Positions 4,045 through 28,380 of a stretch of DNA of 28,380 nt are shown piece after piece. Origin of the DNA: a virus; the IMG/VR virus record IMGVR_UViG_3300032087_004365, positions 1 to 28,380 of that record; one strand, 5' to 3'. The notes beneath the pieces were generated by a model that ran no database searches, had not been told where the DNA came from, and saw nothing but the letters and a program-made list of their open reading frames with translations. The stretch's first letter is position 1. Every line of letters starts with the position of its first letter. The position numbers and the translations under genes are program-made.

Positions 4045-6033
4045 ATGCCAAACAAGATAAAATTAAAACGTAGTAATACTGGTGGTAGTGCACCAACAGC
4101 AGCACAACTAGACACAGGTGAAGTAGCACTTAACATGGCTGACAGGCTATTGTATTTTAAAGATCCAAGTGCTAACATCAAATCATTAGACATTGCAGAT
4201 CTAAACAGTTTTACTACTTCAGATCTCACAGAAGGCACAAATTTATATTACACTGATGCTAGATTTGATTCAAGATTAGCAACAAAAACTACAGACAACT
4301 TAACTGAAGGCACTAACCTTTATTACACAGATGCTAGATTTGATGCAAGATTATCAACTAAAAACACAGGTGATTTAGCAGAAGGTCTTAATTTATATTA
4401 CACAGATGCACGTGCAAGAGGTGCAATCAGTGCAACAGGTGATTTAAGTTACAACTCAACAACTGGTGTTCTTTCATACACAGAAAGTGTAAACAGCGTA
4501 AATGGTGCAACTGGCGTAGTTGTGCTAGACACAGATGATGTAAGTGAAGGTGCAACTAATCTTTATTATACAGATGGTCGTGTAGATGCACATTTAAACA
4601 CACCAACTGCCGCAAGTGGCGAATTTTTAAGTTGGACAGGCACAGATTATGATTGGGTTGCTGGCGGCGGAGGAGCAACTGATTTAGACAGTTTAACAGA
4701 TGTTACAATTACAACTGTATTAGATAATCAATTGCTTGCATATGATTCAGGTAGTAGTCAATGGTTAAACACAAGTTCAATTACAACTGTAGGATTTGAA
4801 AACGCAGCAACTACTTTTGGAACAGCATTGATTGCAAGTCGCACAAACAGCAGTGGTAACTATGGTGCAAGTTTTCAAAACAGTAAATCATCTACACTAG
4901 CAGATGGTGATTTTTCAACTGCAGCAGGCTTTGCAATTAAACCAAGCACAGGTAGCACTGCATATCCTGGTTTTATTCACGGTGAATATCATGGAACACT
5001 TGGCAACCGTTTACATTTTAAATTATACAACGATGGTGTAAGCACATTTGGAACTAACACAGGTTTAAAGTTAGGTGAAAATGACGCAGAATTTTTTGAT
5101 GGTGATTTAACTTTGCTTACAGCAGGTGGCAGTCAAACTATTGGTAGTGCAACAGGTAATATTATACTTTCACCATTTACATCAAGTCAAGTATCCATTG
5201 ACCAAGTAGATACTAATGCAACACTAACCTTAAACAATGCTAATCCTACAATTGCAAACAATGATTATCTAGGTTCACTCAACTTTGCAAAATCTGGAAC
5301 AAGTTTATCAAGAATTGATACTAAAATAACTGATACTGGATCTGGCACAGAAGATACACAACTTGAATTCTACATAAGAAACAATGGTGGTGATAACGTT
5401 ATAATGGTTATGGATCCAAGTCGAACAAATGTAAGCAGCAATCTTGATGTGCAAAGCAAATGGTTACAAGTTCAACACAGCAGTGCTACGCCAACACAAT
5501 ACATGTTTAGAAGTCACAATCACGGTAGCGGACAACTAGTAGGTCAAATTGAATTCTGGGGACAGGATAGCACTGCTAGTTCTCTACGTTATAGTAGAAT
5601 TAGCAGTCGTGCAGATGATAATACTGCTGGTTCTATAGATAGTAGTATCGAGTTTCAAGTATCAGATAACGGATTTTTGTTCACTGCAGCCAAGATTGAC
5701 AAAAGCGGTATTGAATTAGTAGGCTACAGAGAAACTGCAAACACACCAGCAAGTTCAGGCACAATTGCACCAGATCCCGCAGGCGGAACATACGGTGTAA
5801 TTACATTGAGTGGTAACATTACGTTTAACGGCTTTACAAATCCAATTGCAGGACAAAGTTATACACTAGTAATCAAACAACCAAGCAGTGGTGGTCCATA
5901 CACACTAACTTCAAGTATGTTGTTCTCAGGTGCTGGTAAAACACTAAGTGTCGCAGCAAACGCAGTAGATGTAATGACTGTGTTTTATGATGGCACAAAT
6001 TACTATGCAAGTTTAACACTAGGATACGCATAA
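4045..6033 (+). CDS. Second tail fibre / receptor-contact protein
   Basis: This 662-aa protein has AGGAG before its ATG. It opens with MPNKIKLKRSNT, a start common to phage fibre proteins that bind the tail. Residues 60-190 hold four NLYYTDAR/NLYYTDGR repeats of the same type as in the neighbouring 904-aa protein. Near residues 213-241 is one copy of 'LtDVtI..vldnQlLaYdSgSsqWlN', the unit that occurs three times in the protein at 25118. The middle is beta-rich and resembles phage fibre shaft or head segments. The last 85 residues (ITLSGNITFNGFTNPIAGQSYTLV, then DVMTVFYDGTNYYASL) match a C-terminal beta domain common in phage fibres. It probably acts with the 904-aa fibre in adsorption. Confidence 0.78.
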   Translation: MPNKIKLKRSNTGGSAPTAAQLDTGEVALNMADRLLYFKDPSANIKSLDIADLNSFTTSDLTEGTNLYYTDARFDSRLATKTTDNLTEGTNLYYTDARFDARLSTKNTGDLAEGLNLYYTDARARGAISATGDLSYNSTTGVLSYTESVNSVNGATGVVVLDTDDVSEGATNLYYTDGRVDAHLNTPTAASGEFLSWTGTDYDWVAGGGGATDLDSLTDVTITTVLDNQLLAYDSGSSQWLNTSSITTVGFENAATTFGTALIASRTNSSGNYGASFQNSKSSTLADGDFSTAAGFAIKPSTGSTAYPGFIHGEYHGTLGNRLHFKLYNDGVSTFGTNTGLKLGENDAEFFDGDLTLLTAGGSQTIGSATGNIILSPFTSSQVSIDQVDTNATLTLNNANPTIANNDYLGSLNFAKSGTSLSRIDTKITDTGSGTEDTQLEFYIRNNGGDNVIMVMDPSRTNVSSNLDVQSKWLQVQHSSATPTQYMFRSHNHGSGQLVGQIEFWGQDSTASSLRYSRISSRADDNTAGSIDSSIEFQVSDNGFLFTAAKIDKSGIELVGYRETANTPASSGTIAPDPAGGTYGVITLSGNITFNGFTNPIAGQSYTLVIKQPSSGGPYTLTSSMLFSGAGKTLSVAANAVDVMTVFYDGTNYYASLTLGYA

Positions 6034-9614: not shown

Positions 9615-9647
9615 TACGCTGTCTCCTTTTAACTAACTTACATTATT

Positions 9648-27136: not shown

Positions 27137-27346
27137 TTATTTCTTTAACTTCGTTAAATTCTTTAATTTCTTTAATTCGTTAATAGCGGCAAATGTTAGA
27201 TGTCTTGCCGCAACGAAGTATTGAGATTTGCTCAGCCAAGCAATATGAACATTACAATCTTTACATCGCAATGAAGCATAATGCGGACCAGAGCCAGCAC
27301 CGATTTCTACAGTGTGTTTGTCATGTTTGTGAGATAGATTTTGCAT
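27137..27346 (-). CDS. Small Cys/His zinc-ribbon-like protein
   Basis: This encodes 69 aa from ATG 27346. The frame is open further upstream to 27460, but that start would lie ahead of the promoter at 27396-27424, so the internal ATG is preferred. Residues about 3-38 read NLSHKHDKHTVEIGAGSGPHYASLRCKDCNVHIAWLSKSQ. 'HyasLrC.dCn.hIaWLsk' is a pattern I recall from small phage proteins near recombination or single-strand DNA genes, with a CxxC metal-binding pair and nearby His residues. The C-terminal tail is repetitive and Lys/Leu-rich (NELKKLKNLTKLKK). It is the first gene of its transcript. Function unknown. Confidence 0.65.
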   Translation of the reverse strand: MQNLSHKHDKHTVEIGAGSGPHYASLRCKDCNVHIAWLSKSQYFVAARHLTFAAINELKKLKNLTKLKK

Positions 27347-27373: not shown

Positions 27374-27388
27374 TAAACTTAACTTACA
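27374..27388 (-). repeat. 15-bp inverted repeat, left arm (leader motif)
   Basis: TAAACTTAACTTACA is the exact inverse complement of TGTAAGTTAAGTTTA at 27475-27489. Its core TGTAAGTT (minus strand) lies at about +1 of the leftward promoter here, just as in the three promoters at 8870, 9123 and 9648. It may be an operator or a fixed 5' end sequence of early RNA. Confidence 0.8.
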
Positions 27389-27395
27389 TAGTTTA

Positions 27396-27424
27396 TTTAT
27401 ACAATAAGCGTCATTTTTTGTCAA
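27396..27424 (-). promoter_or_regulatory. Leftward sigma70 promoter for the 69-aa/200-aa genes
   Basis: On the minus strand, TTGACA (27419-27424) and TATAAA (27396-27401) are separated by 17 bp, preceded by an A/T-rich stretch. TGTAAGTT follows at 27381-27388. A leftward terminator ends just upstream of it. Confidence 0.85.
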
Positions 27425-27426
27425 CC

Positions 27427-27468
27427 AAAAAAAAGAGGCAGTGTGAAAGGTAAAAAACACACTGCCTC
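27427..27468 (-). terminator. Leftward rho-independent terminator, strong
   Basis: GAGGCAGTGTG (27435-27445) pairs perfectly with CACACTGCCTC (27458-27468) around a 12-nt loop. Eight A on the plus strand (27427-27434) give a U-run for leftward RNA. No minus-strand gene lies upstream, so it should end a non-coding leftward transcript. Confidence 0.85.
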
Positions 27469-27474
27469 AGAGCC

Positions 27475-27489
27475 TGTAAGTTAAGTTTA
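27475..27489 (+). repeat. 15-bp inverted repeat, right arm
   Basis: TGTAAGTTAAGTTTA is the inverse partner of 27374-27388. Here it points rightward and lies immediately beyond the leftward terminator, with no clear -10 box at the distance seen for the other copies. The pair brackets a leftward promoter and terminator, so it could be a two-site operator. Confidence 0.8.
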
Positions 27490-27537
27490 TGTTTCTAACA
27501 AAAAGAATTATAAACAATTTTTAAAAAGGAGATCTTA

Positions 27538-27588
27538 ATGTCTACTCATAAAGATCGGATCTATTTGTGTGCCGGATCAGTTTGGTAG
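27538..27588 (+). CDS. Possible 16-aa leader peptide
   Basis: AAGGAG (27526-27531) precedes ATG, giving MSTHKDRIYLCAGSVW and TAG. GATCTT (27531-27536) can pair with AAGATC (27551-27556), placing the start codon in a hairpin loop and part of the ribosome site in the stem. That resembles translational control. It may be a real leader peptide or a side effect of an RNA on the other strand. Confidence 0.25.
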   Translation: MSTHKDRIYLCAGSVW

Positions 27589-27654
27589 GTTGAGAGAACC
27601 AGTAGGCATCGACACTGCAAATAGGATAGTATTAATAATTACGGAGAACTTCTA

Positions 27655-27753
27655 ATGGCTAAGAAGTTCAAACTGATCTTTAGTGCCTACACAAGTATTT
27701 ATACACAAAAAAACACCTTTGTCAACACTTTTTTATTGACAAATGATAAATAA
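27655..27753 (+). CDS. Possible 32-aa peptide with start codon in a hairpin loop
   Basis: GGAG (27643-27646) precedes ATG 27655, giving MAKKFKLIFSAYTSIYTQKN and 12 more residues. The start lies in the 8-nt loop of the GAACTTCT/AGAAGTTC hairpin, an arrangement like that of the 16-aa ORF upstream. The frame runs through both divergent promoters, so coding is doubtful. Confidence 0.25.
   Translation: MAKKFKLIFSAYTSIYTQKNTFVNTFLLTNDK
27698..27725 (-). promoter_or_regulatory. Leftward sigma70 promoter of the structured region
   Basis: On the minus strand, TTGACA (27720-27725) and TATAAA (27698-27703) are separated by 16 bp. The -35 box and its upstream A-run share 16 identical bases (27719-27734) with the strong promoter at 9670-9685. 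Transcription should begin near 27690. Confidence 0.8.
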
Positions 27754-27764
27754 AAGTGTATAAC
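27736..27764 (+). promoter_or_regulatory. Rightward sigma70 promoter of the early operon
   Basis: TTGACA (27736-27741) and TATAAC (27759-27764) are separated by 17 bp, upstream of the 27798 gene. Its -35 box faces that of the leftward promoter across 10 bp, forming a palindrome. Confidence 0.85.
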
Positions 27765-27797
27765 ATTTATAGTTATATTGCAAATAGGAGAAAAAAT

Positions 27798-28174: not shown

Positions 28175-28380
28175 ATGTTACCAAATATCAGCACAGAAGT
28201 ATTCACAATCACAGAAATTCAGAATAGAACAAGTAGAAACAATGATGAAGAAATGTATGTAATAGAACTTACTGATATTGTAAATGATGAAAATGTCTTT
28301 ACAACATTTATTGTAGAATCACATGAAAACTTTGCACTATGGCAGCGTATGATTCAAAACAAAGATCGTTACTATCTACT
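28175..28380 (+). CDS. Unknown 132-aa early protein, 5' part (continues at 1-284)
   Basis: ATG 28175 lies two bases after the previous stop and has GAGGA upstream. The first residues are MLPNISTEVFTITEIQNRTS, then beta-like strands with many acidic residues (MYVIELTDIVNDENVFTTFIV). The frame passes into the terminal repeat and continues in the same phase from position 3 of the window, ending at 284. Together 115 unique bases here plus 284 at the start give 133 codons including the stop. Function unknown. Confidence 0.8.
   Translation, partial: MLPNISTEVFTITEIQNRTSRNNDEEMYVIELTDIVNDENVFTTFIVESHENFALWQRMIQNKDRYYL
28290..28380. repeat. Terminal direct repeat, right copy
   Basis: These 91 bases are identical to 1-91. 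Removing one copy leaves a 28,289-bp circle with an intact gene across the join. Confidence 0.95.

Follow-up and report, generated by a model that had tools for sequence, protein, structure and literature searches.

A candidate regulatory RNA with a conserved intertwined pseudoknot in uncultivated marine phages

What might a small phage transcribe from a stretch of about 265 nt that lies between divergent promoters and has no evident gene? The question arises in the virus record IMGVR_UViG_3300032087_004365, whose whole length of 28,380 bases we analysed and call the window. Because identical copies of a 91-base direct repeat lie at its two ends (1-91 and 28290-28380), we take it to be a probably complete genome of a phage, cut open at an arbitrary position. 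The terminase shares 46% identity with the terminases of HTVC026P-type cultured phages of Pelagibacter. Among the 30 window proteins that were scanned against PHROGs, head, tail, packaging, and DNA methyltransferase genes and a probable terminase small subunit were recognised; neither a replication gene nor a clear transcription regulator was. (As for weak matches to DNA-binding proteins, one is the gene for the probable terminase small subunit and one lies inside a tail fibre protein.) Since PHROGs recognised no replication gene, this phage must rely for its replication on host functions or on genes that escaped recognition.

A preliminary description of the sequence had proposed that the locus encodes a new structured RNA, perhaps a decoy, an antisense RNA, or a riboswitch-like element. 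The elements around the RNA are:

27736..27764, + strand: divergent promoter (TTGACA-17-TATAAC), read directly; points toward small genes and then the structural genes
27698..27725, - strand: sigma-70-type promoter (TTGACA-16-TATAAA); transcription expected to start near 27691
27427..27691, - strand: predicted non-coding RNA of ~265 nt; 5' end placed from the promoter, 3' end from the terminator
27427..27468, - strand: intrinsic terminator with an 11-bp stem and 8 U, from sequence and fold
27397..27424, - strand: second leftward promoter (TTGACA-17-TATAAA) for the next leftward gene, from a promoter scan
27137..27346, - strand: gene for a 69-amino-acid protein of unknown function, the first gene past the RNA

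An independent strict scan agrees with the leftward consensus promoter of the preliminary description: on the minus strand, the -35 element (TTGACA) is at 27725-27720 and the -10 element (TATAAA) is at 27703-27698, with a 16-nt spacer. (A simple promoter scanner that demands a T at the last position of the -10 misses this promoter.) The terminator is indeed strong, with a perfect 11-bp stem (GAGGCAGTGTG/CACACTGCCTC, 27435-27468) that is followed by 8 U on the minus strand. From these signals we predict a transcript of ~265 nt, close to the earlier estimate of 260 nt, and no open reading frame in it is conserved on either strand. So the own promoter, the own intrinsic terminator, and the absence of a conserved open reading frame that characterise a phage-encoded sRNA are all found in the window. 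The second leftward promoter, directly past the terminator, had been overlooked; because of it, we view the RNA as a free-standing unit and not as the next gene's leader. The riboswitch-like guess is unlikely: a terminator closes the unit, and a separate promoter serves the gene that follows. A riboswitch or cis-acting leader in the strict sense is excluded, since the terminator at 27427 and the separate promoter at 27424-27397 mean that the RNA is not in the 5' UTR of a controlled gene.

Within the RNA, in 5' to 3' order, the parts of the fold are:

27684..27690, - strand: A (GUAGGCA), at the RNA's 5' end; 7-bp pairing with A'
27669..27678, - strand: B (GAUCAGUUUG), after the linker CUAAA; 10-bp pairing with B'
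27646..27669, - strand: hairpin C, 8 bp (arms 27646-27653/27662-27669), with loop UAGCCAUU
27610..27624, - strand: 5' strand of stem D, CUAUUUG (27618-27624) and GUGUCG (27610-27615)
27602..27608, - strand: A' (UGCCUAC), within the loop of D; partner of A
27588..27600, - strand: small hairpin E (GGUU/AACC), between A' and B'
27575..27584, - strand: B' (CAAACUGAUC), partner of B; crosses A/A' and abuts the 3' strand of D
27561..27574, - strand: 3' strand of stem D, CGGCAC (27569-27574) and CAAAUAG (27561-27567)
27469..27560, - strand: A+U-rich 3' tail with an anti-Shine-Dalgarno-like UCUCC; ends in UAAACUUAACUUACA (27475-27489)

The complementary segments that had been noted are all present, with 10 bp (27575-27584/27669-27678), 8 bp (27646-27653/27662-27669), and 7 bp (27602-27608/27684-27690), and the 10-bp and 7-bp helices do cross, as in a pseudoknot. 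They turn out to be part of a larger fold: a five-base linker separates A from B, then come hairpin C, the 5' strand of D, A', the small hairpin, B', the 3' strand of D, the tail, and the terminator. The crossing helices A/A' and B/B' are tied together by stem D, which encloses both A' and B'. Stem D had been missed; it has 6+7 bp (GUGUCG/CGGCAC plus CUAUUUG/CAAAUAG). (B and C have base 27669 in common, so one of the two must be 1 bp shorter.) The nested fold of the RNA has a z-score of -5.0, and 0 of 200 shuffles are as stable, with the terminator contributing to this value.

Is this fold conserved? Relatives were gathered with protein anchors around the locus, with gene order as in the window, and the useful contigs came via the terminase, a tail protein, and a 124-amino-acid tail-region protein. 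(As an anchor, the 69-amino-acid protein gave few relatives among viral contigs. The 124-amino-acid protein had no match in genome contigs, and the locus itself had no BLAST match among 50,697 phage records.) Three other IMG/VR phages have the same locus: L039 (from contig G001, with 94% identity of the terminase across piece L032), with its near-twin L046 (97% identical to L039 across the RNA region); L001 (contig G002; 77% for the terminase); and L030 (contig G006; 79% for the terminase). The distant L034 has it less surely. Only four of the sequences are both clearly homologous and distinct.

In L039, L046, L001, and L030, the strand opposing the structural genes carries a promoter and then a gene-free stretch of ~170-265 nt, which a terminator closes; a further promoter and a gene come next. 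All of these phages also share the -10 element TATAAATA, with A beginning 4-7 nt downstream; L034 has GATAAATA. (Promoters comparable to the divergent one at 27736..27764 are present in L039 and L030.) The gene behind the RNA varies: it encodes the 69-amino-acid protein in the window and in L001 (71% identical), and L039 and L030 have other open reading frames there. (More distant homologues of this protein are found in L034 and in phage DSL-LC06.) That the RNA unit persists whereas the following gene changes was counted toward a conserved structured RNA.

The helices recur as follows:

L039: A GUAGGCA/UGCCUAU, B GAUUAGGU/GCCUAAUC, D AGUAUGAUG/CAUCAUACU
L001: A AGACAG/CUGUCU, B GAUUAGGU/ACCUAAUC, D AAUGUAACC/GGUUACAUU
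L030: A GUAAGCAU/GUGCUUAC, B AAACAG/CUGUUU, D ACAAG/CUUGU

Across these phages most of the primary sequence has been lost, and the fold persists. Smaller details recur as well. The linker between A and B is CUAAA in the window and UUAAA in L039 and L001, and in these three the gap between B' and the 3' strand of D is 0 nt. The sequence GCCAU lies within a hairpin loop in the window (hairpin C), L039, L001, and L034. A 4-bp hairpin at the position of E is also found in L039 and L001, which is weak evidence since 4-21% of shuffled loops have one. In L034, the relative of the 69-amino-acid protein is preceded by a similar unit that starts with TTGTGCGGGCAGTAAGG (vs TTGTGTAGGCACTAAAG in the window). 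There, the promoter, 5' motif, A/A', GCCAU hairpin, and terminator agree and B and D are weak, so L034 is a possible member only.

To ask how often chance would give such an architecture, we added up the stacking energies of the helices A, B, and D with only loose limits on their spacing, left the terminator out, and compared the score with those of dinucleotide shuffles. The scores were -40.9 for the window, -39.7 for L039, and -36.9 for L001 (0 of 2000 shuffles each). With A and B alone, 0 of 1000 shuffles reached the score in each of these three. These tests are partly circular, because the spacing limits were set after viewing these sequences. L030 and L034 give fairer, more independent tests, and their results are weaker yet still significant: L030 scored -27.8 (4 of 2000 shuffles; 1 of 1000 for A and B alone) and L034 scored -34.3 (6 of 2000; 8 of 1000), with only A being strong in L034. 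The locus also ranks first among the 4720 windows of its own genome (both strands) by this score. Across 49 viral loci (465 kb of related phage DNA), 90 places combine a -10 element with a suitably spaced terminator, and the top six of these are the loci of the window, L039, L046, L001 (represented twice), and L034; L030 is also above the cut.

The changes between the relatives also fit the helices. In a four-row alignment, 83.8% of the cells are paired, vs 31-42% after sliding by 1-3 columns, and double-sided changes affect 8 of 21 pairs, vs 1-4 in the slid controls. The pairing and covariation values were reached by 0-1 of 500 shuffles, and the covariation score by 0 of 500. (The counts were made on alignment A7, because the three-row alignment A8 had stem A of L001 off by one; L030 is slightly misplaced in A7, which partly counts against the structure.) The strongest single fact is that the pairing of stem D is kept with quite different letters (GUGUCG, AGUAUGAUG, and AAUGUAACC), that is, with a full replacement. 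With four sequences, we judge the covariation evidence to be good, not overwhelming. Seven G-U pairs on the minus strand would be A-C mismatches on the other strand, which favours a leftward RNA, with the caveat that the helices were sought on the minus strand. Overall, the proposal of a new structured RNA holds up: conservation and covariation are both found in the collected relatives, where compensatory changes keep the crossing helices. We are highly confident that this is a real, conserved structured RNA.

The RNA does not resemble known classes. In line with the preliminary description, which recognised no known class, the Rfam check was negative: with Rfam 15 (4227 families), nothing reached the gathering threshold in the window, L001, L030, L005, L017, L003, or L008, and permissive searches gave only scattered sub-threshold matches. 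The best of these, to sbrA in L001, has 27.9 bits (vs a gathering threshold of 45). It extends over just the 3' tail and the terminator (4495-4542) and is absent from the relatives. ARAGORN found no tRNA or tmRNA. A search of open-access papers turned up no account of an RNA like this one, which is not proof that none exists.

We also looked for further members. An architecture scan of the cultured pelagiphages HTVC026P, HTVC202P, HTVC111P, and HTVC112P (which have a related terminase), DSL-LC06, and more distant contigs found L034 again and no other convincing case. A match in L003 to the L039 promoter was just a promoter-like stretch. In GTDB genome contigs, the pattern TATAAATA-N8-20-TAAAGATYAG occurs in at least 114 stretches, which look like chance because they are scattered over unrelated phyla. 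L052 has a unit of promoter, short RNA, terminator, and promoter (~2630-2470, - strand), whose fold differs from that of the window RNA. Also, two non-homologous genes, at 4580-4645 (+) in L001 and 2792-2733 (-) in L030, have a common leader (UGUAGGGUUAAAACAAC...CACCCUAC) directly past the RNA unit and second promoter. It folds into a multi-branched junction in both phages and is possibly a second structured leader, perhaps riboswitch-like.

What might the RNA do? Among the decoy, antisense, and riboswitch-like suggestions, antisense seems the best, and one further feature bears on it:

27374..27388, - strand: segment of the next leftward gene's leader (UGUAAGUUAAGUUUA), complementary to the RNA tail

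The tail at 27475-27489 (UAAACUUAACUUACA) is complementary at 15 of 15 positions to this segment, which forms the first bases of the next leftward mRNA, and 0 of 300 shuffled tails do as well. This perfect 15-nt inverted repeat had been missed. The tail is also complementary over 9 bases to each of the related UGUAAGUUAGUUAA leaders at 9642, 9117, and 8864. (The leftward genes at 9676-9600, 9151-9071, and 8890-8830 have near-identical UGUAAGUUAGUUAA leaders (...GGAGA...AUG), and two of them have identical promoters. Contig G001 has such leaders too, in L182 near 8289, 7603, and 6343.) L039 and L046 have a 9-nt complement to a different neighbouring leader (CUUAAUACA vs UGUAUUAAG), with p ~0.03, and their tail (UUUGUCUCC) against leftward leaders with GGAGACAA gives p of 0.007-0.03; both values are uncorrected for the number of leaders tried. 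In these two phages the tail has changed together with the neighbouring leader, the pattern expected of an antisense RNA following its targets. Tail-leader pairing was not found in L001 or L030. A duplex search with the whole RNA against all translation starts gave no excess over shuffled RNA in the window, L001, or L030, a slight one in L039, and no convincing target common to the phages. The inverted repeat in the window could instead be a protein site or the stem of a read-through transcript.

We can sketch how an antisense RNA of this kind would work. Host RNA polymerase would make it early and in large amounts. The knotted 5' domain would shield its 5' end and may present the GCCAU loop, and the A+U-rich 3' tail and U-tract would act like the Hfq-type sRNA tail that they resemble, perhaps with Hfq-like help. 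The tail would base-pair with the leaders at the 5' ends of the leftward genes of the phage itself, or with their translation starts, the neighbour being the foremost target, and translation of these genes would be damped as infection proceeds. That a phage sRNA restrains its own leftward genes by base-pairing is a tentative proposal that draws on sequence complementarity. For the combination of a conserved structured RNA with this antisense mechanism, we estimate a probability of about 0.4.

The main rival is that the knotted 5' domain is the active part: as a decoy or inhibitor it would bind a protein of the host (RNA polymerase, a ribonuclease, Hfq, or a ribosomal factor), and the tail would only terminate transcription. 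This is possible, if doubtful. What is conserved is the structure of the 5' domain, in four phages, with the A-UAAA-B linker fixed in three and a zero-nt junction between B' and D; the GCCAU loop recurs, and the tail pairing is not conserved. But a stabilised antisense RNA would likewise have a conserved fold, no known protein-binding motif was recognised, and Rfam gave no resemblance to 6S RNA. A related idea, to which we also give a rather low chance, is that the RNA represents a new structural class in which the work is done by the intertwined pseudoknot itself (A-B...D[A'-B']), for instance by capturing a host protein or by using the GCCAU loop as a guide. The RNA would then be a takeover factor of small marine phages that lack recognised replication and regulator genes.

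An improbable reading is cis-acting antitermination or attenuation, in which the 5' fold modifies RNA polymerase or switches and allows some read-through into the leftward genes. The arrangement would suit it, since a leftward transcript would begin with the structured RNA, and a terminator and then genes on the same strand follow. In L034, moreover, pairing is conceivable between the terminator's first arm and the segment that follows A (AGGGCUUU). However, read-through is not needed, because the next gene's own promoter is close behind the terminator in the window, L039, L001, L030, and L034. Also, the fold leaves the terminator out in the window, L039, and L001.

Still less probable is a replication or packaging RNA (a primer, an origin transcript, or a pRNA-like RNA). 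Such an RNA would suit a phage in which PHROGs recognised no replication gene among 30 proteins, and the locus does lie between divergent promoters. But the GC skew does not switch at the locus and follows gene direction, the terminator is strong, the genes for the terminase large subunit and probable small subunit are ordinary, and no conserved DnaA-box-like or iteron array was seen by eye.

Opposite the RNA, on the + strand of the window, 27643-27660 and 27528-27541 resemble the phage's translation starts (GGAGA-N6-8-AUG), and L039 has similar sequences of the GGAGACAA type. These may be anti-translation-start segments of the RNA or leftovers of an inverted leader. That they start small peptides (a ribosome binding site with ATGGCT at the first and with ATG at the second), the complementarity being a by-product, is hardly credible: although GGAGA-N6-8-ATG occurs at two places in both the window and L039, no reading frame is kept between the relatives on either strand, the frames encode 16 and 32 amino acids in the window with no common peptide (the first is ATG-TAA in L039 and 9 amino acids in L046; the second is 9 amino acids in L001, with no well-placed ribosome binding site), the promoter scan gave no + strand promoter, and the compensatory changes and G-U pairs fit a minus-strand RNA.

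How does the RNA compare with known systems? Type III toxin-antitoxin systems have ToxI, a pseudoknotted RNA that is followed by a terminator and then a gene. The window RNA has the same order of parts. But ToxI has tandem pseudoknot repeats, and the RNA region has no such array (it has three short direct repeats, 163-302 nt apart). Also, the downstream gene differs between phages and is not a recognised nuclease; in Pfam and PADLOC, no toxin family, ToxN/AbiQ-type nucleases included, matched the proteins encoded downstream. The put RNAs of phage HK022 are antitermination RNAs with two simple hairpins. Like them, the window RNA would place a structured element at the start of an early leftward transcript and ahead of a terminator. 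Unlike them, it has an intertwined pseudoknot, and the genes behind it have their own promoter, so antitermination of the put kind is possible but unneeded.

Lambda OOP and P22 sar are short phage RNAs that are thought to act on phage mRNA (OOP on cII, and sar on antirepressor synthesis; reviewed in PMC12197685). The window RNA is likewise short, with its own promoter and terminator. But OOP and sar are encoded opposite their targets, whereas the window RNA has no conserved gene opposite it and its proposed targets are elsewhere. Its conserved intertwined pseudoknot also sets it apart; to our knowledge, OOP, sar, and similar older phage antisense RNAs have none. Trans-acting sRNAs of phages and prophages include AgvB (PMC12197685) and svsR (PMC12803456). 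The window RNA is similar to these in its intergenic position, its U-tract, and a tail that is proposed to base-pair, but it has a conserved pseudoknot domain and, with no Rfam match, no sequence relation to them was shown.

The class of RNA appears to be new, while phage sRNAs as a kind are already known. In all likelihood this regulatory RNA is real and had not been described before; what it would regulate is a guess. It may be a main life-cycle regulator of phages without a recognised replication gene or a dedicated transcription regulator. A search pattern is now available: TATAAATA, 4-7 nt, A, UAAA, B, a GCCAU-loop hairpin, and D[A' B']. Most of the phage small RNAs that have been described are from a few model phages; here, comparison alone brought to light one that is conserved, knotted, and free-standing, in marine phages yet to be cultivated.
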